23,046 nt of DNA, taken from positions 1-23,046 of the IMG/VR virus record IMGVR_UViG_3300013286_000588; one strand, given 5' to 3'. Shown one piece after another: positions 5,322 to 17,869 of this stretch. Made by a program: the position numbers and the translations under genes. Numbering within the stretch: position 1 is the stretch's first letter; the number at the start of each line of letters is the position of its first letter. The notes beneath the pieces were generated by a model. The model was given only the letters and a program-made list of their open reading frames with translations, was not told the DNA's origin and made no database searches. The stretch is from a virus.

Positions 5322-5683
5322 TAAACGGTATAACTCAACAGGGTAGACACATGTACATACATGGGGGGCATTCTAGCAGTCCCTATGTTAACATGAATAA
5401 TTCTTCTGCTGGCATGATGAGATATAACGGCAGTTACATGGAAGTGTATGATGGAAGTGTTTGGCAAACTATTAGCGGTGCTATTGCAACTGTTGGAATG
5501 AATGCCAATGCCGAATCAGCGATTGACTGGGCTATAAAAAAGATGTCTGAAGAAAGAGAGTTTGAATTGCTTGCTGAGAATCATCCTGCTGTTAAAATTG
5601 CATTAGAAAACCTAAATAAAGCACAAGAACAACTAAAAGCTACAGTTATACTGAGCAAGGAATATAATGAAACAACAAATTAA
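5318..5683 (+). CDS. Small protein with fibre-like N-terminus and coiled-coil C-terminus
   Basis: This 121-residue protein is coupled to the clamp gene by an ATGA overlap. The N-terminal half (MYIHGGHSSSPYVNMNNSS then MMRYNGSYMEVYDGSVWQTI) resembles the short beta motif of phage tail-fibre and baseplate proteins, in which a Y-N-G / Y-D-G-S-x-W pattern recurs. The C-terminal half (about 65-121) is charged and helical and probably a coiled coil. I do not know its function. A virion-type protein between the clamp and dpdA is unexpected; it could be an adhesion accessory or a small regulatory protein. Its 3' end overlaps dpdA by 17 bases. Confidence 0.6.
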   Translation: MINGITQQGRHMYIHGGHSSSPYVNMNNSSAGMMRYNGSYMEVYDGSVWQTISGAIATVGMNANAESAIDWAIKKMSEEREFELLAENHPAVKIALENLNKAQEQLKATVILSKEYNETTN

Positions 5684-7313
5684 CTTAACTCCACTACAGA
5701 AAGACTACGCTGTCTATTTGCCAGCTATTAGCAGTTTCTATAGTACATACATTGCAAAACAAAGATTAGAAAAGTTTATCGCTGACGATCGCGTTCCTGC
5801 AGGATTTGATCGCGGTGTCGAAGGCATGAACTTTCTCAATGCTGAAGAAGGCTACTTTACCTACAAGTACGGTCTTTACTCAGCAGGTCACGCACAACTA
5901 GATTTGAATAAGAGTCTAACACAAGAGTCAATGATCCAACAACGAGATCGTGGCAATACGATGATCTTAGGCGACTCCGGTGGTTACCAAATTGGTAAAG
6001 GTGTCCTTAAATTTGATTGGCTAGACTTTGAAGGTCCTAATGCAACTAAAACACGTCAAAGTATTTTAGAATGGTTAGAACTTACCGCTGACTGGTCTAT
6101 GATGCTAGACGTTCCTACATGGGCATGTGATCACGTACACAGTCCAAAGACTGGTCTCAAGACAGTTGAAGATTGTTTGGAAAAGACGCAGTATAATAAC
6201 AGATACTTCTTAGAAAATCGTCTAGGACAAACCAAGTTCTTAAACGTACTACAAGGATGGGATTGGGATTCTGCAGAAGATTGGTACAACGGTGTTAAAC
6301 AATTTAGTGATCCAAATACAACATGGGGCGAAAATAAGAACCCTTCAGCCGAAGGTTGGGCATTTGGTGGTGCTAACATGTGTAAGATGGATATTACTCT
6401 TAAACGTCTAATGACCATGCGTGAAGACGGTCTGTTAACAGGTAAGAATTGGATTCACTTCTTGGGTACTGCACAGCTAGACTGGGCTTGTTACTTGACC
6501 AGTATCCAACGCCAAATCCGCAAGCACATCAATCCAGAACTTACAATCAGTTTTGACTGCGCAAGTCCGTTCATTGCTACAGCACACGGATTGGTTTATA
6601 CCAATGCACAGCATACAACTAAGCGATGGAGTGTTATCATGGACAAGGCTCCAGACAACAAGAGTCTTTCCGGACGGGACGATATACCTTTTCCGTTTGA
6701 ATCAGCGATTGGTCGCAGACTGACAATGAAAGATATTGCCTACTATGATTTAGGTGAGCGCAAGACTGATGCAGAATTAGGTGGTGTTGTATTCGATCAT
6801 CTAAATCCTCAACACTATAATGTTGTTCCTCGCCTTAATAAGCTAGGTAAAATTCCAAACAGAACAAGTTGGGATAGTTTTGCCTATGCGTTGATGATGG
6901 GGCATAATGTCGAATGTCATATTGTTGCTGTACAACGTGCAAATCAATTAATGGATATTGAAACAGCAAAGGCTCAACCCGATTGGCGTCATTGGAAGAA
7001 ACTCAAAGATTCTGAAACAGGTAGTGACCAATATTCAGACTGGGTTCCTCGTAATATTCTTTACTTTAACCGTTTCGTAGAAGAATTGTTTAATACAAAG
7101 ACTAAAGCAGAAGCGTTCCAAATGATTGAAGACGCAAAACCTATGTTGTCTAACATGATGGGTATGCGACTACGTGGTGGTAATGCTGAAAATAACTTTA
7201 CAAGTTTATTTGAAACTGAAGAAGTAGTATTAGATAAAACTGTAAGTCCTGTAACTGCAATGCCAGAGCTAGATGAAGACAAGCTCGACGCATTAGAATT
7301 TGATAATGCCTAA
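5667..7313 (+). CDS. dpdA: DpdA-like DNA guanine transglycosylase (7-deazaguanine insertion)
   Basis: This 548-residue protein belongs to the tRNA-guanine transglycosylase (TGT) superfamily. Visible signatures are GDSGGYQIGKG (DSGGYQ 103-108, substrate-binding Asp103), WAFGGAN (AFGG 232-235), HFLG (264-267) and ISFDCASP (D297, the expected nucleophile aspartate, compare DCxxPTR in TGT). The C-terminal CxCx2C zinc site of tRNA enzymes is absent, which argues against tRNA as substrate. Phage DpdA proteins replace guanine in DNA with 7-deazaguanine bases and protect it from restriction enzymes. QueD-like, QueE-like and FolE genes nearby fit this. The DpdA subfamily cannot be assigned without a tree. 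It overlaps the next gene by 1 base (TAATG). Confidence 0.88.
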   Translation: MKQQINLTPLQKDYAVYLPAISSFYSTYIAKQRLEKFIADDRVPAGFDRGVEGMNFLNAEEGYFTYKYGLYSAGHAQLDLNKSLTQESMIQQRDRGNTMILGDSGGYQIGKGVLKFDWLDFEGPNATKTRQSILEWLELTADWSMMLDVPTWACDHVHSPKTGLKTVEDCLEKTQYNNRYFLENRLGQTKFLNVLQGWDWDSAEDWYNGVKQFSDPNTTWGENKNPSAEGWAFGGANMCKMDITLKRLMTMREDGLLTGKNWIHFLGTAQLDWACYLTSIQRQIRKHINPELTISFDCASPFIATAHGLVYTNAQHTTKRWSVIMDKAPDNKSLSGRDDIPFPFESAIGRRLTMKDIAYYDLGERKTDAELGGVVFDHLNPQHYNVVPRLNKLGKIPNRTSWDSFAYALMMGHNVECHIVAVQRANQLMDIETAKAQPDWRHWKKLKDSETGSDQYSDWVPRNILYFNRFVEELFNTKTKAEAFQMIEDAKPMLSNMMGMRLRGGNAENNFTSLFETEEVVLDKTVSPVTAMPELDEDKLDALEFDNA

Positions 7314-7891
7314 TGGACTTTATATCTGAATATCAATTGTCAGACATTACTATCTGCGACGAACTGTTGAGACTTTTTAGACTTGCAGATAGTAATGGTT
7401 TAACTAATCCTGGTGTTACGGGATCGGACGAACAAATTAGACCAGAGTATAAAGACAGCGTTGATTTCCATTTAGGTGATGCTAGAACATTAGGCAAGCC
7501 CCAAGATTTTAAATGGCCGAATTATCATACTGAATTGTCCGGATTTATTGACAAATACTGCACAGATGCTAAAATATACGAACACGCTGGAAAGTTTACC
7601 ATACGCGATTTACCACAAATACAGTGGTACAAACCTAGTGCAGGTTATCACGCATGGCATATCGATGGCGGTCATGAATTTTGCAATCGTGCAATATCAT
7701 TTTTAACGTATTTGAATACAGTACCAAATGGTGGAACTGAATTTTTGCATCAGAACAGAGTTGTTGAAGCAGTAAAAGGCAAAACAATTTTGTTTCCAAC
7801 TGCATACACGCATATTCATCGAGGACAGGTTACTGCTAACCTCGACAAATATATTTTAATTGGCTGGCTTTGGTGGGATAACGAAAGATGA
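7313..7891 (+). CDS. 2OG-Fe(II) dioxygenase, prolyl-4-hydroxylase-like
   Basis: A 192-residue protein with the double-stranded beta-helix facial triad in order: WHID (H116, D118), then THIHRGQV (H169), then LDKYILIGW, where K179 is the likely 2-oxoglutarate ligand. NGGTEFL (139-145) matches the usual GGxTxF strand. These features define an iron- and 2-oxoglutarate-dependent hydroxylase of the P4H type. The substrate is unknown. Its start codon overlaps the dpdA stop by one base, and it ends in an ATGA overlap with the next gene, so it is made together with DpdA. Oxidation of the inserted base or of a nearby protein are both possible; the base hypothesis is inference. Confidence 0.85.
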   Translation: MDFISEYQLSDITICDELLRLFRLADSNGLTNPGVTGSDEQIRPEYKDSVDFHLGDARTLGKPQDFKWPNYHTELSGFIDKYCTDAKIYEHAGKFTIRDLPQIQWYKPSAGYHAWHIDGGHEFCNRAISFLTYLNTVPNGGTEFLHQNRVVEAVKGKTILFPTAYTHIHRGQVTANLDKYILIGWLWWDNER

Positions 7892-8439
7892 AAAGAGATT
7901 ACGATTCTGGTGTCGCAACAGACATTATGTTTTTTACAGGCATAGAGATTGAAAAGACTCCTGCTTACGGAATGAATACTCTGTTTGTAGTGGGCACACA
8001 TGATCCTCAAACAGTATTGCATATAGCCAACGATACTCAAGCATTACTCGATGAGAGTAAACGTATCAAACATATCTACTTCGGTGCTAATCAAAGTTTT
8101 CCTAAACTTCTAACTAACGATGCTGATGCTTGGCGTCCTTGGGAATATATGATCCAAGAATGTCTTGATGCCGGCTACTGGTGTACACTAGACTTTGATG
8201 TAAGTGTAGTAGAAGGTGTCCTTGAAAGTGCGTTAGTTGAACATCGACGGTTTATTCCTCAGATTTCGGTTAAACTTCCCTACTTGACACAGCTGGGATA
8301 TAATGCTACAATTAAGATTGACGACAAAGATTTTGCCGCAACAAATCATGGAGTGTGGTGCCATAACCTACATGACCTACTTGGTAGAGATAAGTTTACA
8401 AGTTGGGACCAATATGGTAAAGACGAGATTATCAAATGA
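7888..8439 (+). CDS. Unknown protein in the 7-deazaguanine cassette
   Basis: This 183-residue protein sits between the dioxygenase and the QueD-like gene, with ATGA overlaps on both sides. It looks alpha/beta: strands such as NTLFVVG, IKHIYFG, YWCTLDFDV and RFIPQISVKLPYL alternate with helices (VLHIANDTQALLDE, WEYMIQECLDA). Polar residues that could form a site are DFD (near residue 105), EHRR and two His/Cys-bearing stretches (GVWCHNLHDLL). I do not recognise a named family. Because its neighbours handle CDG chemistry and no QueC is present, an enzyme acting on CDG (for example a CDG decarboxylase, the role given to DpdL) or a partner of DpdA is possible. This is by association only. Confidence 0.75.
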   Translation: MKRDYDSGVATDIMFFTGIEIEKTPAYGMNTLFVVGTHDPQTVLHIANDTQALLDESKRIKHIYFGANQSFPKLLTNDADAWRPWEYMIQECLDAGYWCTLDFDVSVVEGVLESALVEHRRFIPQISVKLPYLTQLGYNATIKIDDKDFAATNHGVWCHNLHDLLGRDKFTSWDQYGKDEIIK

Positions 8440-8858
8440 GTATAGAAACAATTAAAGAAGCCGCCCAGCGCCAAATTTGGGTTACCTTTCGAAAAGAAGG
8501 TATTCACTGCTATCCTGCGGCCGCAACAGACCCTGCATTAGCAACCGGCGATGAATATGATGTATCATTCCTCGGTACACCGCATCGTCATATTTTCCAT
8601 TTTCGTGTAGCCATTGATGTGTTTCACAATGACAGAGATATCGAGTTTATCCAATTTAAACGTTGGTTAGAAAATCTATATCAAGGCACACTAGAACTTA
8701 ACTACAAGTCTTGCGAAATGATCGCAGATGATTTGTACACCCAGATTGCGGCACGTTATCCCAAACGTACTGTAATAATTGACGTATCCGAGGACGGCGA
8801 GAACGGATGTGTCATTCATTATAATCTTACTCGCCCGTCACAATCCATTGTAATTTAA
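8436..8858 (+). CDS. queD: Divergent QueD-like T-fold protein (6-carboxytetrahydropterin synthase family)
   Basis: A 140-residue protein whose layout follows QueD/6-pyruvoyl-tetrahydropterin synthases: H24, then PHRHIFHFRVAIDV (H50 and H52 as likely zinc ligands with H24), IEFIQFKRWLE (compare IIDFxELK), SCEMIADDLYTQI (compare the PTxENxA helix) and IIDVSEDGENGCVIHY (compare VxETxxxGCxY, E119). By eye, the catalytic Cys expected four residues before the HxH and the Asp-His pair of the LDHxxLN segment are missing. It may make 6-carboxytetrahydropterin in an unusual way or do another reaction on the same pathway. ATGA overlap upstream couples it to the dpdA operon. Confidence 0.72.
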   Translation: MSIETIKEAAQRQIWVTFRKEGIHCYPAAATDPALATGDEYDVSFLGTPHRHIFHFRVAIDVFHNDRDIEFIQFKRWLENLYQGTLELNYKSCEMIADDLYTQIAARYPKRTVIIDVSEDGENGCVIHYNLTRPSQSIVI

Positions 8859-8870
8859 GGAACTTAAAAA

Positions 8871-9131
8871 ATGGCACAGCCAAAATGGCTCGACAAGTAC
8901 CTGGTAATGAAACCAGATGTTACTAAACTCTTCGACGATCTCGAAGCCTGGCACGATCATTGCAGATTTGAAATGATCGATTTTAACCCTGCAGACTTGT
9001 ACAAGTCTAAGGCCTATAGAGACTTCACCTATAGGAAAAATGGTGGTAAAGGTTACCGTGGAAACGGAGAACGCAAACCTTACCTAGGTAAGAATCCAAG
9101 GCCATATAACAATGACCGTTTTTCTAATTGA
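8871..9131 (+). CDS. Small protein with basic, glycine-rich tail
   Basis: An 86-residue protein. AAGGAA (8858-8863) is the probable ribosome-binding site before ATG 8871. The N-terminal half (PKWLDKYLVMKPDVTKLFDDLEAWHDHC) is helical and resembles small proteins of T4-like cyanophages that begin xxPxWLxKYLxMKPxVxKIFDDL, from recall. The C-terminal 35 residues are rich in Arg, Lys, Gly, Tyr and Asn (YRKNGGKGYRGNGERK), typical of a disordered nucleic-acid-binding tail. No function is known. The gene overlaps the glycosyltransferase by 20 bases. Confidence 0.65.
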   Translation: MAQPKWLDKYLVMKPDVTKLFDDLEAWHDHCRFEMIDFNPADLYKSKAYRDFTYRKNGGKGYRGNGERKPYLGKNPRPYNNDRFSN

Positions 9132-10212
9132 TTTAGAAGCAGTAGAAACAAGGTACACGGGTCAGTGGAAGACTCATGTACCTAGTCTCTTACGAAAGGC
9201 AGGACACAATGTCAACATTATATCAGGCCCCACTGATATTCCAACTGCTACTACTCCTGGAGCTTTTCTTAATTTTGGCGGCACCAATATTTACAAAGCC
9301 AGACAAGTTGAGGAAATGGGGCGTCTATTTTGTTCCGGCGCTGTTTGTCCAGGCGACCATTTTATTTTTACTGACGCTTGGCATCCTGGCATCATTAATC
9401 TAAAGTATATGAGTGAGTTGTTAGGGATTCCTATTACAACACATGGCTTATGGCATGCTGGTAGTTATGATCCTCAAGACTTTCTAGGTCGACTTGTTGG
9501 CAACAAACCGTGGGTTAGACATGCAGAGCAAAGTTTCTTTTACGCATTTGATCACAACTACTTTGCCACTAAGTTTCATATTGAACTATTCCATAGAGAA
9601 TTGCTCAATGGAGGATTCCAAATAGAGAATCCCTGGTATGAAGAAGAACTAGACGAAATTCTATCAGGCGAGTATAAAAAGATTGTACGCACTGGCTGGC
9701 CAATGGAGTATATGGACGGTACATTAACCGGATATAAGAACATGCCCAAACGTGATCTTATTTTGTTTCCGCATCGGATCGCTCCTGAAAAACAAGTTGA
9801 GATTTTTAGAGATCTAAAAGAACATTTGCCGCAATATGAATTTGTTGTGTGCCAGGATCAACATCTAACTAAGAATGAATATCATAACCTACTAGGCGAA
9901 GCTAAATTAGTGTTTAGTGCAAATCTACAAGAGACGTTAGGCATTAGTTGTTATGAAGGTGCTGTAGTAGATGCTATTCCAATGGTTCCAGATCGCCTTA
10001 GTTACACAGAAATGTATTACGATACATTTAAGTATCCAAGCAAGTGGACTGAAGACTATCAATCATATACTGTTTATCGCCCAGACTTGTGTCATAAGAT
10101 CATGCAGTATATGGACCATTACGAAAGTTTTATTCCAAAAGTAAAACAACAATCACAAGACCTAACAGAGCACTTTTTCAGTGCCGGAGAATTATTAAAA
10201 TGGGTAAAATAG
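9112..10212 (+). CDS. GT-B fold glycosyltransferase
   Basis: A 366-residue protein with the two-domain layout of GT-B enzymes. The C-terminal domain carries LILFPHRIAPEKQVEIF (HRIAPEK 221-227, compare R-x5-K of GT4 donor sites) and ANLQETLGISCYEGAVVDAIPMVPDR (E274 and E282, the E-x7-E nucleotide-sugar motif, followed by a P-rich loop). The N-terminal domain contains conserved-looking WHPG (90-93) and HGLWHAGSYD (111-120). It would transfer a sugar from a nucleotide donor. The acceptor could be phage DNA, a virion protein or host glycan. It is followed with a 13-base overlap by a UDP-glucose-dehydrogenase-like gene, so sugar-nucleotide and transferase are probably used together. Confidence 0.8.
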   Translation: MTVFLIDLEAVETRYTGQWKTHVPSLLRKAGHNVNIISGPTDIPTATTPGAFLNFGGTNIYKARQVEEMGRLFCSGAVCPGDHFIFTDAWHPGIINLKYMSELLGIPITTHGLWHAGSYDPQDFLGRLVGNKPWVRHAEQSFFYAFDHNYFATKFHIELFHRELLNGGFQIENPWYEEELDEILSGEYKKIVRTGWPMEYMDGTLTGYKNMPKRDLILFPHRIAPEKQVEIFRDLKEHLPQYEFVVCQDQHLTKNEYHNLLGEAKLVFSANLQETLGISCYEGAVVDAIPMVPDRLSYTEMYYDTFKYPSKWTEDYQSYTVYRPDLCHKIMQYMDHYESFIPKVKQQSQDLTEHFFSAGELLKWVK

Positions 10213-10988
10213 GTATTATAGGATTAGGATTTGTAGGCAATGCTATTAAACAGGCATTTTGGGACGATAGCCGATTAGTATTAGTCGACAATGACAAAAC
10301 CCGGGGGCGCGATCCATTCCAGGACCTAGCGCAATGCGACGGAGTTTTTATCTGTGTCCCAACTCCGCAAGACTACGATGGTACTTGCGATACCACTATC
10401 TTAGAAGACATTCTAGCAAAGTTGGAAATAATCAAGTTTGAAGGAGTTATCATTAGTAAATGTACAGCGCCTCCAGATACCTATACTAGATTAAACGAGC
10501 AATATCCAAATCTTGTACATGCGCCAGAATTTTTAACTGCCGCCAATGCCGCTAGAGATTATGCCAATGGTAAGTTTGCTATCATCGGTGGTCGTATTAA
10601 AGCATATAGGGATCTAGCCGAAAGTGTTATTAAAGAAACACAAGGTGGATTAGAAAGCGTTCATCATTGTACTATTGCTGAAGCAAGTTTGGCAAAGTAT
10701 GCTATCAACACATTTATGGCCACTAAGGTTACATTTATGAACGAATTGTATTCTTTGGCAAAGGCCAGCGACTGCGATTACAATCAAATTGCTAAAATGA
10801 TTAAAAGCGATGTAAGAATTGGTAACAGTCATATGCAGGTTCCAGGGCCGGACGGCTCCTTTGGTTTTGGTGGAGCATGTTTTCCAAAGGACACAAACGC
10901 ATTAATAAAATTTGCAGAAAGCAAAGATGTTCAAATGAATGTATTGGATGCGGCTGTGAAGAAAAATACTTTGCTTCGCTTGACTTAA
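10200..10988 (+). CDS. Short UDP-glucose/GDP-mannose dehydrogenase-like protein
   Basis: A 262-residue protein with a Rossmann GLGFVG (8-13), CVPTP (52-56), HAPEFLT (107-113, with the conserved Glu110), EASLAKYAINTF (161-172, Lys166 and Asn170) and GFGGACFPKD (222-231), which carries the catalytic Cys227. These are the active-site motifs of nucleotide-sugar 6-dehydrogenases, which oxidise UDP-glucose or GDP-mannose with two NAD+. Typical enzymes have about 390-440 residues. Here the chain stops after the linker helix, so the C-terminal nucleotide-sugar-binding domain is missing. It may be a natural short form, as in some phages, or use another substrate. The stop lies over the next promoter's -35 box. 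Confidence 0.82.
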   Translation: MGKIGIIGLGFVGNAIKQAFWDDSRLVLVDNDKTRGRDPFQDLAQCDGVFICVPTPQDYDGTCDTTILEDILAKLEIIKFEGVIISKCTAPPDTYTRLNEQYPNLVHAPEFLTAANAARDYANGKFAIIGGRIKAYRDLAESVIKETQGGLESVHHCTIAEASLAKYAINTFMATKVTFMNELYSLAKASDCDYNQIAKMIKSDVRIGNSHMQVPGPDGSFGFGGACFPKDTNALIKFAESKDVQMNVLDAAVKKNTLLRLT

Positions 10989-11046: not shown

Positions 11047-11784
11047 TTGACAGAATCAGTAATATACAAAAATATAGACGACAAAGACTACGAAGAATGT
11101 AACCTAGCAGATGCCATTCGCTTTAAGATGAAGCGTGAAGGCAAACGTTTTTGGGCTGGCGATAACATCAGCGAATACTTGCACGAAAGTGACAAAGAAA
11201 ACTTGATCAACGAAGCAACTAATGCCTTTGAAAAAGTATTGGATACGCTGTTAATTGATAGAGAGAATGATCCAAACAGTCGAGGTACAGCACGACGATT
11301 AGCTAAAATGTATTTCAACGAAGTAATGGCAGGCAGATATGAACCAGCACCAGACGCAACCGCGTTTCCTAATGATAGTGAAGATCGTTATGAAGGTATG
11401 TTGGTGGTTAGGTCTGAGCTTCGTAGTATGTGTAGCCATCATCATCAGCCTGTTTCTGGTGTTGCCTACATCGGAATCATTGCCGCCCAAAAGCTCATCG
11501 GACTGTCCAAGTATACACGTATTGCCCAATGGTGTAGTCGTAGAGGAACCCTACAGGAAGAATTGTGTAATGACATAGCTAAAGAAATTAGCAAGGCTAC
11601 CGGTGCAACAGACTTAGGTGTTTATATTCAAATGATACATGGTTGCTGTGAGAATCGCGGCATTATGGCACATTCTAGTCTAACACAAACTACTGTATTG
11701 AAAGGTGCTTTTAAAGAAGACGGCAATACAAAGAAAGAGTTTTTTGATAATATTAAATTGCAACAAGAGTTTGCACCACGTTAA
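11047..11784 (+). CDS. folE: GTP cyclohydrolase I
   Basis: FolE converts GTP to 7,8-dihydroneopterin triphosphate, the first step of both folate and 7-deazaguanine synthesis. The 245-residue protein starts at TTG 11047; GGAG at 11037-11040 gives proper spacing, while the first in-frame ATG (11128) lacks one and would cut off the N-terminus. Key motifs are MCSHHHQPVSGVAYIGI (C129 and H132 as zinc ligands), KLIGLSKYTRI (149-159) and MIHGCCENRGIMAHSS (C200 as third zinc ligand, R204), all standard for type I enzymes. With QueD-like and QueE-like genes nearby, it probably feeds phage 7-deazaguanine synthesis. The TTG start may limit its level. Confidence 0.93.
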   Translation: MTESVIYKNIDDKDYEECNLADAIRFKMKREGKRFWAGDNISEYLHESDKENLINEATNAFEKVLDTLLIDRENDPNSRGTARRLAKMYFNEVMAGRYEPAPDATAFPNDSEDRYEGMLVVRSELRSMCSHHHQPVSGVAYIGIIAAQKLIGLSKYTRIAQWCSRRGTLQEELCNDIAKEISKATGATDLGVYIQMIHGCCENRGIMAHSSLTQTTVLKGAFKEDGNTKKEFFDNIKLQQEFAPR

Positions 11785-13060: not shown

Positions 13061-13529
13061 TTGTCTAGAAAAGCTAGACCGTAAGCGTATCATCATGGAT
13101 CGAGAAAGTAACGAACCATATCTAGAACGATATTATATATTTTTGAAAGATAGGCCCAACTGGTTTCCGTTCAATGCGTTTATCCATAAGTTTCTTAAAT
13201 CAGATCCAGACGAAGTTCATGATCATCCGTGGCCGTATTTTACCTTAATCCTCCAAGGTGGCTACTGGGAATGGATTCCTAAGATTAATACCCTAGGGGA
13301 AAAATGGGGAGAGTACAAGATATGGCGAGGCCCAGGTCACTTTAGAACTTGTGAACCAGAAAGCTATCACCGTATTGAATTAGAACCAGGTGTTACACCT
13401 TGGACACTATTCATGCCAGGTCCAAAAAAGCGTGAATGGGGATTCCTTGATAATAACAAATGGATACACAACGAAACTTATTTGAAAGGCAGACGTGAAC
13501 AAGCTAATATTAACACCGCCGCAGTTTAA
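13035..13529 (+). CDS. Cupin-fold protein
   Basis: A 164-residue protein read from ATG 13035; an in-frame ATG at 13014 is also possible but lies deeper in the previous gene. The cupin signature is visible: EVHDHPWPYFTLILQGGYWEW (H62, H64), GHFRTC (H102) and SYHRIELEPG (H112). These histidines could bind one metal ion in a small beta barrel. VHDHPW followed by LxGGYWE is frequent in phage cupins of unknown role. It might be a sugar-modifying or dioxygenase-like enzyme or a binding protein. It overlaps the phosphoribosyltransferase by 35 bases, one of the longer overlaps here. Confidence 0.75.
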   Translation: MKLTDTLLNCLEKLDRKRIIMDRESNEPYLERYYIFLKDRPNWFPFNAFIHKFLKSDPDEVHDHPWPYFTLILQGGYWEWIPKINTLGEKWGEYKIWRGPGHFRTCEPESYHRIELEPGVTPWTLFMPGPKKREWGFLDNNKWIHNETYLKGRREQANINTAAV

Positions 13530-13995
13530 TGGCCTAATTGCAAAAATATGTAGAGATATCATGCTCAGTGATTGGCGTCCTGATATCATAGTAGGCATTG
13601 GTCGTGGTGGACTGTTGCCTGCTGTCATGATTAGTCAATATTTTAATATTAAGATGAACAGTTTAGATATTAGTCTACGTGACGGTGGCGATACTGTGAG
13701 TAATTGCGGCTTAGCCTCAGACGCATACGAAGGTGCAAATATTCTAGTTGTAGACGATATTAACGATACTGGTGCTACATTTAACTGGCTTATGGAAGAT
13801 TGGCGTTCCAGTGCGTTGCCAAGTGCCATACGTTGGGACAACGATGTTTGGAATAAAACTGTAAAGTTTGCAGTAGTAGTAGATAACCTTGCAAGTGAGT
13901 GCAATGTTAAAATGGACTTTGCCGGTATGGAAGTTAACAAGGCAGAGAAAGATGTGTGGATAGAATTCCCTTATGAGGAGTGGTGGACAAAATGA
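13495..13995 (+). CDS. Type I phosphoribosyltransferase
   Basis: A 166-residue protein starting at GTG 13495. The PRPP-binding loop is NILVVDDINDTGAT (motif 85-95), preceded by DIIVGIGRGGLLPA (30-43), the usual PPi-loop strand of type I phosphoribosyltransferases. Family members salvage a base with PRPP or regulate pyrimidine genes; the closest in layout are hypoxanthine/xanthine-type enzymes. In this phage it could salvage a purine or a deazapurine, since CDG-type bases are made nearby, but substrate residues cannot be judged by eye. The GTG lies in a 35-base overlap with the cupin gene. The end overlaps the next gene by 4 bases. Confidence 0.85.
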   Translation: MNKLILTPPQFNGLIAKICRDIMLSDWRPDIIVGIGRGGLLPAVMISQYFNIKMNSLDISLRDGGDTVSNCGLASDAYEGANILVVDDINDTGATFNWLMEDWRSSALPSAIRWDNDVWNKTVKFAVVVDNLASECNVKMDFAGMEVNKAEKDVWIEFPYEEWWTK

Positions 13996-14591: not shown

Positions 14592-14813
14592 ATGTACAAA
14601 ACAATTTATACAGAAGTCGAAGTAGATGTTGATTTGAGCGACTTTGATACAGATGATCTAATTGAAGAATTGGAATCACGTGGGTCAGCTGTTATGGACT
14701 ATGGTGATGGCAAGGAAGTGCTGGAATCCATTTACCAAAAACGTAGGCTGGGTCAAAATTATCAATCCGAGCTGGAACAACTAATCTATCTAGGGTTAGG
14801 TCGTGTTATATGA
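14592..14813 (+). CDS. Small acidic conserved phage protein
   Basis: A 73-residue protein with AAAGG (14582-14586) before ATG 14592. It is acidic, with EVEVDVDLSDFDTDDLIEELESRG then KEVLESIYQKRRLGQNYQSELEQLIYLGLGRVI. The DVDLxDFDTDDLIEELExRG block is a pattern I recall in T4-like cyanophage hypothetical proteins. It appears to be a short beta strand followed by helices. Function unknown. It ends in an ATGA overlap with the nucleotidyltransferase. Confidence 0.65.
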   Translation: MYKTIYTEVEVDVDLSDFDTDDLIEELESRGSAVMDYGDGKEVLESIYQKRRLGQNYQSELEQLIYLGLGRVI

Positions 14814-15211
14814 CAACTGTGATAGTTAACGGAACATTTGATATTCTTCATCCGGGACATATTGCCATGTTAAACACTGCTCGCAGTTTAGGCGATTATC
14901 TTATTGTATGCATTGATACTGACCGCCGTGTTAAAGAACTCAAAGGCGACAACCGTCCTATTAACAATCAAATCTTTCGCAAGGTTATGTTGCAGAATCT
15001 CAAGGCTGTAGATATTGTTGAACTATTCGATAATCAAGAAGAATTGATTAATTGTATTAAGTTATACAAGCCAGATATTATGGTCAAAGGCAGTGACTGG
15101 AAAGGCAAGAGCATAGTAGCAGAGCAATATGTAAAAGAAATCTTTTGGTATGATAGAATAGATGAATACTCAACTACAAAAACAATTCAAGATATTATTA
15201 GTCGGGGATAA
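14810..15211 (+). CDS. HldE/RfaE2-like nucleotidyltransferase
   Basis: A 133-residue cytidylyltransferase-like protein with VNGTFDILHPGHIAML (HPGH 14-17, the nucleotide-binding motif), RKVMLQNLKAVDIVELF (58-73), IMVKGSDWKGK (KGSDW 93-97) and EYSTTKTIQDI (119-129, the ISTTKI-like motif). This set defines the family of the HldE C-terminal domain, which makes ADP-heptose from heptose 1-phosphate and ATP; glycerol-3-phosphate cytidylyltransferase is the closest alternative. The PfkB kinase follows with a 50-base overlap. In HldE the order is kinase then nucleotidyltransferase in one chain; here they are two genes in reverse order. Confidence 0.85.
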   Translation: MTTVIVNGTFDILHPGHIAMLNTARSLGDYLIVCIDTDRRVKELKGDNRPINNQIFRKVMLQNLKAVDIVELFDNQEELINCIKLYKPDIMVKGSDWKGKSIVAEQYVKEIFWYDRIDEYSTTKTIQDIISRG

Positions 15212-15920
15212 CTGTATCGACATCTACCGGTATGGTAGTGTAGATCGTATTAGTCCAGAAGCACCAATCCCAGTGTTTGTGCCAAGGTATGATATTGTCA
15301 AAGACGGAATGGCTGGTAATGTTCTTCTTAACCTAAAAGCATTGGGATGTGATGTTAATTTTCTTTGCGGACATGCAAGTGAAAAAACTAGACTTATTGA
15401 TACTCGTAGCAAACAACAAATAGTCCGTATTGACAAAGACGTAACGTCGGCTCCAATTACAATAGAAACAGCGTTGCCCGATTACGATGCTATTGTTATT
15501 AGTGACTATAACAAAGGCGTAGTTAGCTACGAACTTATTGAAGACTTACGCAAAAACTTTTCTGGCCCAATCTTTATTGACACAAAGAAAACAGACCTAG
15601 CAAGACTAGAAGGTTGCTTTATTAAGATAAACGAACTCGAACATAGTCGTGCTACAAGTTTTCCAGAAGGAGTGCCGTCAGGACTAATTGTTACCTACGG
15701 TGAACGAGGAGTCGTATATGATGAGTTTGCGTTCGGGGCAAGAACTGTAGAAGTAGCAGATGTATGCGGTGCAGGTGATACATTTTTATCAGCATTAGTT
15801 TACGAATACCTAAATACCCTGGACCTACACAAGGCGATCAGCTTTGCTATCGATGCGAGTGCAATCACAGTACAGCATTTAGGAAACTACGCACCAACAT
15901 TAAAGGAAATAAATGGATAA
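15162..15920 (+). CDS. PfkB-family sugar kinase, HldE N-domain-like
   Basis: A 252-residue ribokinase/PfkB protein with LLVGDNCIDIYRYGSVDRISPEAPIPVF (15-39), which contains the RISPEAP signature of RfaE/HldE kinases. DGMAGNVLLNL (48-58) matches the GGAxNxAxN motif, ISDYNKGV (113-120) the SDYxKG motif, and DVCGAGDTF (200-208) the PfkB signature 2 with catalytic Asp206. It should phosphorylate a sugar phosphate at C1, by analogy D-glycero-D-manno-heptose 7-phosphate. It is about 60 residues shorter than the HldE domain. The start overlaps the nucleotidyltransferase by 50 bases, so start choice is less certain. Confidence 0.85.
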   Translation: MNTQLQKQFKILLVGDNCIDIYRYGSVDRISPEAPIPVFVPRYDIVKDGMAGNVLLNLKALGCDVNFLCGHASEKTRLIDTRSKQQIVRIDKDVTSAPITIETALPDYDAIVISDYNKGVVSYELIEDLRKNFSGPIFIDTKKTDLARLEGCFIKINELEHSRATSFPEGVPSGLIVTYGERGVVYDEFAFGARTVEVADVCGAGDTFLSALVYEYLNTLDLHKAISFAIDASAITVQHLGNYAPTLKEING

Positions 15921-16795: not shown

Positions 16796-17025
16796 CTACA
16801 GCCAAAGATATATTTGATCAAACTATGCATAAGATTAAAAATATGCAGATGTTTGAAATAAAACGTGAAGTCGGGCCAAACTGGTTGCCGCGTGGTTCCA
16901 TTCCATTTGACATTCATGCAGGTAGTGGCGTTGCTACATTTACCGTATACGCAGAATTCTTACAAGACGCAGAAGATCAAGTAACACAATTTTTAGAAAG
17001 ACAGGACGAAGATGAGCAAGATTAA
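16792..17025 (+). CDS. Small phage protein of unknown function
   Basis: A 77-residue protein that begins at GTG 16792, overlapping the previous stop by 4 bases (GTGA), with AGAGG a few bases upstream. The N-terminus (AKDIFDQTMHKIKNMQMFEIKREVGPNWLPRG) and a beta-rich middle (PFDIHAGSGVATFTVYAEFLQDAEDQV) give a compact domain, and the end is acidic (ERQDEDEQD). I recall similar proteins next to queE in T4-like phages but know no function. Overlap with queE by 14 bases suggests coupled translation. Confidence 0.65.
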   Translation: MTTAKDIFDQTMHKIKNMQMFEIKREVGPNWLPRGSIPFDIHAGSGVATFTVYAEFLQDAEDQVTQFLERQDEDEQD

Positions 17026-17869
17026 ATTAGCAGAACTATTTTATAGTATACAAGGTGAAGGACGTTACATGGGTGTACCGTCTGTTTTCTTGCGTACATT
17101 CGGTTGTAACTTTACCTGTCAAGGTTTTGGTATGCCCCGTGGCGAACTGTCCAATGAACGTGAAGCTATTGCAGAGCGTATTCTAGAATTTAAAGAATAC
17201 AATGAACTTCCATTAGTAAGTACAGGCTGTGACAGTTATGCAAGTTGGGATGCCCGTTTTAAAGATCTCAGTCCGTTAGTTGAAACAGACGGCATTGTAG
17301 CACGTATTATGGAAATGCTACCTCACGGCGAATGGCAAGACGAGCATCTTGTTATCACCGGCGGTGAGCCAATGTTAGGATGGCAACGTGCTTATCCAGA
17401 CTTGTTAGATCATCCTAAAATGCAGAATCTTAAAGAAATTACTTTTGAAACAAACGGCACAATGCGTTTGACAAAAGACTTTAGACAGTATTTGTTAAAC
17501 TGGACATTAGGTAATAAAGACCGTGGACGTATTGCTCTAACATTCAGCATTAGTGCTAAACTGCCTTGCTCTGGTGAGCCGTGGGAAGATGCTATCAAGC
17601 CCGAAGTGGTGTGTAGTTATGAAGACATCGGTTATGCATATTTGAAGTTTGTTGTGGCAACAGAAGAGGATCTTGTAGATGCAGAACGAGCAGTTGAAGA
17701 ATATCGTGCGGCAGGTTTTAAAGGTCCTGTGTATGTTATGCCTGTCGGTGGTGTTGAGCGGGTGTACATTCTTAATAATAGATCAGTGGCGGAGATGGCA
17801 ATGCGAAAAGGATGGCGGTACAGTGACCGACTTCAGGTGCCACTCTTTAAAAACGAATGGGGAACCTGA
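17012..17869 (+). CDS. queE: QueE-like 7-carboxy-7-deazaguanine synthase (radical SAM)
   Basis: QueE is a radical SAM enzyme that converts 6-carboxytetrahydropterin to CDG with a 4Fe-4S cluster, SAM and Mg2+. The 285-residue protein shows AELFYSIQGEGRYMGVPSVFLR (7-28, the QueE N-terminal signature EIFxSIQGEG), LRTFGCNFTC, and VITGGEPML (GGEP 117-120, SAM-binding). Cluster cysteines appear to be C32, C36 and, after a 36-residue insert, C73 (STGCDSYASW) instead of the compact radical SAM CX3CX2C. This spread layout is one I recall from phage and some bacterial QueE-like proteins. It is longer than usual QueE (about 210-245). ATG 17012 gives the canonical N-terminus. Confidence 0.88.
   Translation: MSKIKLAELFYSIQGEGRYMGVPSVFLRTFGCNFTCQGFGMPRGELSNEREAIAERILEFKEYNELPLVSTGCDSYASWDARFKDLSPLVETDGIVARIMEMLPHGEWQDEHLVITGGEPMLGWQRAYPDLLDHPKMQNLKEITFETNGTMRLTKDFRQYLLNWTLGNKDRGRIALTFSISAKLPCSGEPWEDAIKPEVVCSYEDIGYAYLKFVVATEEDLVDAERAVEEYRAAGFKGPVYVMPVGGVERVYILNNRSVAEMAMRKGWRYSDRLQVPLFKNEWGT

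Follow-up and report, generated by a model that had tools for sequence, protein, structure and literature searches.

A DpdA-type transglycosylase, a QueD paralogue and a GT4-like glycosyltransferase recur together in phages and may furnish DNA with a sugar-bearing 7-deazaguanine

The viral record IMGVR_UViG_3300013286_000588, whose 23,046 bases we refer to as the window, comes from a freshwater phage, covers a T4-like replication region and is probably a fragment. An earlier note on this DNA had described a coupled cassette of four genes at positions 5667-8858, coding for a DNA guanine transglycosylase (DpdA), a dioxygenase, an unrecognised protein (UNK) and a divergent QueD-like protein (QDL), and the four open reading frames (ORFs) are indeed present, with overlaps of 1, 4 and 4 bases (Table 1). 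However, a conserved partner located further downstream, a putative glycosyltransferase (GT), was missing from that list. Hundreds of relatives of the cassette are contained in IMG/VR. Among those long enough to show the gene in question (the basis of all counts given below out of 59, 51, 49, 46 or 29 loci), UNK was present in 59 of 59 loci, QDL in 51 of 51 and GT in 46 of 46, while the small ORF positioned between QDL and GT was found in 48 of 49.

The second gene of the cassette is a dioxygenase gene as claimed, since its product matches PF13640 above the gathering score (1.1e-7; 33.1 bits versus 27) and contains an intact HxD...H motif (WHID...THIHRG). Its membership in the cassette did not stand up, because an oxygenase gene sits between DpdA and UNK in just 6 of 112 distinct loci (4 of 96 in a count over non-redundant loci); elsewhere in the 112 loci, this slot is either empty (30 loci) or holds genes for unrelated small proteins. 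The expected co-occurrence of the four genes in other genomes was hence borne out for DpdA, UNK and QDL and failed for the dioxygenase. These counts rule out the dioxygenase as a core member; it is an optional insert, and GT, QDL and UNK are the conserved partners. In the model put forward in the earlier note, the dioxygenase and UNK tailor a 7-deazaguanine base to an oxidised derivative. The oxygenase gene is coupled to its neighbors by 1- and 4-base overlaps in the window and in a few relatives, its catalytic motif is preserved, and the enzyme could still act within this sub-lineage; given its rarity at the locus and the wide distribution of its family as common accessory genes of cyanophages (377 records), we nevertheless consider such tailoring improbable.

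The product of the first gene went unrecognised by Pfam, PHROG, NCBIfam and PADLOC models, and its profile retrieved nothing usable from the PDB sequences. A profile-profile comparison (hhalign) with seven bacterial tRNA-guanine transglycosylases (TGTs) yielded a probability of 85%, and the sequence motifs of the barrel aligned consecutively (window protein/TGT: DSGGYQ/DSGGFQ, D148, VLQG/IVQG, GWAFGG/GYAIGG, FLGTA/LMGVG and FDCASP/FDCVMP). In an alignment of 26 homologues, D103-SGG-Q108, D148 and D297 (the aspartate of FDCASP) are invariant. A CxCxxC zinc motif, which most of the bacterial TGTs used possess, is absent from the window sequence, so that the DSGGYQ and FDCASP motifs and the lack of a tRNA-type zinc site that had been reported for this protein were all found. 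By these sequence features, the window protein is a divergent DpdA-type transglycosylase. A tblastn search detected relatives of it in the PA5oct group, in Phosso and in Vibrio phage 2.275, which together account for 13 phage records. A second type of DpdA, represented by phrog_10773, matched TGT with 95.6% and the window type with 90.5% in profile comparisons. That the window DpdA would act on DNA is suggested by the literature on related phage DpdAs, which work on this substrate (PMC6884629). The TGT motifs are common to the window protein and to the tRNA enzymes, and a role in the queuosine pathway of tRNA modification might be read from them; with no zinc motif, a large distance between the phage proteins and tRNA TGTs, no QueC or QueF partner and DNA as the target of the related enzymes, this reading is hardly credible, and we rejected it on the TGT profile comparison.

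QDL on its own found no match among the Pfam PTPS models, and its profile found nothing usable among the PDB sequences. When a profile of 52 homologues was compared with one of 16 QueD sequences, the match reached 94.8%, in agreement with the earlier description of the fourth gene, while a control comparison with QueE gave 0.2%. In the QDL alignment, the zinc-binding histidines H24, H50 and H52 and the glutamates E94 and E119 on the pterin side are invariant, the QueD catalytic cysteine (before HxH) and the Asp-His pair are missing, and a novel invariant S92-C93-E94 motif is present. A canonical PTPS was detected in 15 of the 19 genomes that we searched, including 14 of the 18 QDL-bearing records among them, and in 5 of 7 members of a further QDL set; the canonical queD gene adjoins that for QDL in Magnetospirillum and in the L203 contig and lies a few genes away from it in phage ACP17. 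QDL might be the phage's own QueD, producing 6-carboxytetrahydropterin (CPH4), with a host QueC making the preQ0 that DpdA inserts; neither the window nor its closest large relative (G001) has a detectable canonical PTPS, and hosts often possess QueC. The loss of the catalytic residues and the coexistence of QDL with canonical QueD in most genomes, even in compact clusters carrying both (Magnetospirillum, the L203 contig and ACP17), render this highly improbable, and we rejected QDL as a mere QueD. For the same two reasons, QDL is most likely an extra enzyme of the pathway.

The predicted structure of GT (predicted local distance difference test [pLDDT] score of 85.5) has a GT-B fold and is close to BshA, MshA, sucrose-phosphate synthase and other GT4 structures (Foldseek E ~1e-8, Z ~23). 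Both glutamates (E274 and E282) of its EX7E motif, which characterises retaining GT4-type enzymes, are invariant in alignments of 26 and 31 sequences; no PADLOC or NCBIfam model matched it, and the PDB sequence search with its profile gave nothing usable. UNK had rightly been called unrecognised: neither Pfam, PHROG, NCBIfam nor PADLOC holds a matching model, and no meaningful match to a PDB sequence was found. A search with its predicted structure (pLDDT 79.5) returned middling matches, with the QueE structures 5th5 and 6nhl among the first ten at a Z of ~6, which lies within the background; the sequence profiles of UNK and QueE matched with 0.2%, and a resemblance to QueE serves as a tentative lead. 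The structure models of UNK and GT were both built from alignments of the window and IMG/VR sequences only.

GT and QDL are encoded next to each other or one gene apart in seven distant lineages that together employ three types of DpdA (the window type, phrog_10773 and phrog_887); in the window, the GT gene stands two places after that for QDL. The gene order is DpdA-GT-QDL in PA5oct, which also carries UNK; QDL-GT, with overlapping genes, in Phosso, where FolE and QueE are present as well; FolE-UNK-DpdA(phrog_10773 type)-GT-QDL-QueE in ACP17; DpdA(phrog_10773)-QDL-GT in BUCT-ZZ01; GT-DpdA-QDL-QueE in X1; GT-QDL-DpdA-QueD in five Magnetospirillum loci; and QDL-UNK-like-GT-DpdA(phrog_887 type)-QueD-QueE-FolE in the L203 contig, the UNK-like protein being assigned by eye from its order of motifs since the UNK profile did not reach it. 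Among finished phage genomes, the GT profile found a match in five of the six that possess both QDL and DpdA (the exception is Roos) and in none of the seven that have one of them alone (six with QDL only, and Vibrio 2.275 with DpdA only). The chance of this pattern over the 13 genomes is 6/1287 if the genomes are independent, a figure that comes from small counts, is uncorrected for relatedness and considers DpdA of the tested types only. Because the surveyed phage genomes with GT all contain QDL as well as DpdA, GT most likely works after or together with DpdA, and this co-occurrence suggests a possible role as a DNA glycosyltransferase.

The claims that FolE and a QueE-like enzyme are encoded in the window were both confirmed by profile matches, and the proposal of a pathway running without QueC also held. 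PF06508 (QueC) had no match in PA5oct, Phosso, ACP17, BUCT-ZZ01 and RHph_I1_18, all deposited as complete genomes, nor in five further QDL phages (Bakedbeans, Ahp1, phi19:2, MA9V-3 and Roos). Only partial, low-scoring QueC matches were obtained in D479, X1 and several IMG/VR relatives, with 16-33 bits in D479 and some of the latter. With QueC absent from the finished QDL genomes save for such matches, the pathway plausibly leaves the known route at 7-carboxy-7-deazaguanine (CDG). Vibrio 2.275, which has a window-type DpdA and no QDL, possesses a full QueC, and the annotation of another of its genes names a QueF-type reductase; this distribution fits a replacement of the QueC branch by QDL.

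FolE, QueD and QueE lead from GTP to CDG by the established chemistry of their families, with QueD provided by either the phage or the host. Without QueC, CDG would not be turned into preQ0; QDL would instead convert it to a base X, perhaps decarboxylated CDG in line with the activity reportedly proposed for DpdL, which DpdA would exchange for guanine in the DNA. Once inserted, the base would receive a sugar, which the GT4-like enzyme would take from a nucleotide sugar; UNK would assist in this branch, and the outcome would be a phage DNA shielded against nucleases. What the analysis shows are the genes, folds and motifs, their co-occurrence and the absence of QueC; from these we infer every reaction after CDG, the sequence in which the reactions follow and the addition of a sugar. 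We consider it probable that a CDG-derived 7-deazaguanine is present in the DNA, and see an even chance for the entire route from FolE via QueD, QueE, QDL and DpdA to GT and a sugar-bearing base. More tentative is the broader proposal that phages and Magnetospirillum contain glycosylated 7-deazaguanine in their DNA and that at least three types of DpdA can be paired freely with the underlying module.

A modification without sugar has to be weighed against the glycosylated base. DpdA would then insert 7-deazaguanine or CDG, QDL would be the published DpdL, a proposed CDG decarboxylase, and GT and UNK would serve elsewhere, for instance in the modification of host sugars. QDL is after all a QueD paralogue of QueC-less phages, and Roos as well as six phages without detected DpdA have it but no GT. 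Further sugar-related genes are present in the window (heptose adenylyltransferase-like, PfkB-like and NDP-sugar dehydrogenase-like), and Iyer et al. (PMC7824862) attribute sugar gene clusters of cyanophages to surface polysaccharides. Genes for host sugars are not expected to track QDL and DpdA so tightly, however, and GT adjoins or nearly adjoins QDL in all seven lineages, with varied DpdA types and including Magnetospirillum, as well as in every informative relative of the window. We therefore regard a sugar-free modification as somewhat unlikely.

Several observations nevertheless weigh against the glycosylation model. Apart from the small size of the 13-genome comparison, Roos has both QDL and DpdA and no GT, so that GT is not obligatory, and a distant GT homologue in Xanthomonas phage PhiXhv-12 has neither QDL nor DpdA nearby. 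QDL occurs without a detected DpdA of the tested types in RHph_I1_18, Bakedbeans, Ahp1, D479, phi19:2 and MA9V-3, and it can function without DpdA or GT. No canonical QueD was found in the 200 kb of G001, and the window phage may therefore rely on its host for this step. Finally, if decarboxylation of CDG is all that QDL does, the resulting base has no obvious hydroxyl group to accept a sugar; X may for this reason be a different C7 derivative, or a carbon or nitrogen may bear the sugar.

Table 1. Features of the window with their positions and the basis of their assignment.
Feature	Position	Strand	Size and basis
DpdA-like DNA guanine transglycosylase	5667..7313	+	548 aa; TGT motifs, TGT profile match
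2OG-Fe(II) oxygenase	7313..7891	+	192 aa; PF13640; lineage-specific insert, non-core
UNK, conserved alpha/beta protein	7888..8439	+	183 aa; 59/59 loci
QDL, QueD (PTPS-fold) paralogue	8436..8858	+	140 aa; alignment, QueD profile match
Small conserved ORF between QDL and GT	8871..9131	+	86 aa; 48/49 loci
GT, GT4-like GT-B glycosyltransferase, EX7E motif	9112..10212	+	366 aa; predicted structure, motif
NDP-sugar dehydrogenase-like protein, optional	10200..10988	+	262 aa; TIGR03026 partial, below cut-off
FolE, GTP cyclohydrolase I	11047..11784	+	PF01227, 2.3e-37
Purine phosphoribosyltransferase-like protein	13495..13995	+	xanthine phosphoribosyltransferase model, partial match, 1.5e-9
Heptose adenylyltransferase-like gene	14810-15211		
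PfkB-like gene	15162-15920		
QueE-like radical SAM enzyme (CDG synthase)	17012..17869	+	phrog_2076, 5e-51

Among the other genes of the window (Table 1), that for the NDP-sugar dehydrogenase-like protein overlaps the GT gene, codes for a protein shorter than usual and is present in 5 of 29 loci. Several NCBIfam QueE models match the window QueE, all of them below their cut-offs, and the protein has an insertion within the radical-SAM cysteine motif: CNFTC is followed by the third cysteine at least ~35 residues on (GCDSYASWD). The phosphoribosyltransferase-like gene recurs alongside the pathway in relatives (including L006), and an XGPRT gene lies between those for QueE and QueD in BUCT-ZZ01; its product could salvage the guanine freed by DpdA.

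Other settings of these genes were also encountered. The compact GT-QDL-DpdA-QueD island of Magnetospirillum-type bacteria lies near a tyrosine recombinase gene, and the gene upstream of GT varies; a CoiA-like gene found at this position was discarded as a nuclease partner because it is present in just two of the five loci. In D479 and phi19:2, QDL is encoded near a deoxynucleoside monophosphate kinase or a kinase-like ATPase, and in this setting entry into the DNA could conceivably proceed by way of nucleotides. Streptomyces sp. NEAU-Y11 has a QDL homologue (39%) on two contigs of one genome, beside QueD, FolE, deaminase-like and FAD-oxidase-like genes; these loci are without DpdA, and no QueE was seen within 20 kb. 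The GT homologue of PhiXhv-12 stands beside GlmS-like, BshB-like deacetylase and leucyl/phenylalanyl-tRNA-protein transferase genes.

If the glycosylation model is true, phages glycosylate not only cytosine and thymine but also guanine, the latter by way of a 7-deaza handle. A widespread family of freshwater phages and the PA5oct/Paride Pseudomonas phages would then carry unrecognised armoured DNA, and a function would be on offer for phrog_17812 and phrog_10773, two families without an assigned role. The prediction can be tested in cultured phages (PA5oct-like phages, ACP17 and X1).

DNA modification with 7-deazaguanines through DpdA is known from phages 9g and CAjan (Hutinet et al., 2019; PMC6884629), whose systems, like the window, comprise FolE, QueE and a TGT-like DNA transglycosylase and produce a modification expected to guard against restriction. 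In contrast to these systems, the window module is devoid of QueC, possesses QDL and GT in addition and uses a very divergent DpdA. DpdL resembles QDL in being a paralogue of QueD that would use CDG as its substrate where phages lack QueC; Cui and co-workers reportedly proposed it in 2023 as a CDG decarboxylase, and dCDG and dDG are said to be present in phage DNA. We know of no glycosyltransferase partner of DpdL. Our literature search, largely limited to freely accessible papers, found no paper joining DpdL with deazaguanine and no link of a glycosyltransferase to DpdA or QDL. PA5oct, which has the same DpdA, QDL, UNK and GT genes, had previously been noted to hold a system for deazaguanine synthesis and incorporation, and the available passages of that paper mention no link to a glycosyltransferase or a QueD paralogue (Iyer et al., 2021; PMC7824862). 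BshA and the tetrahydrobiopterin glucosyltransferase BGluT (PDB 3mbo and 5zes) share the fold and the EX7E motif of GT at ~10-12% sequence identity, and BGluT acts on a pterin. The closest parallel in logic would be the glucosylated hydroxymethylcytosine of phage T4, where a phage glycosyltransferase likewise puts a sugar on a modified DNA base; unlike in T4, the base here would be a 7-deazaguanine, and the enzyme is GT4-like with a BshA-like fold.

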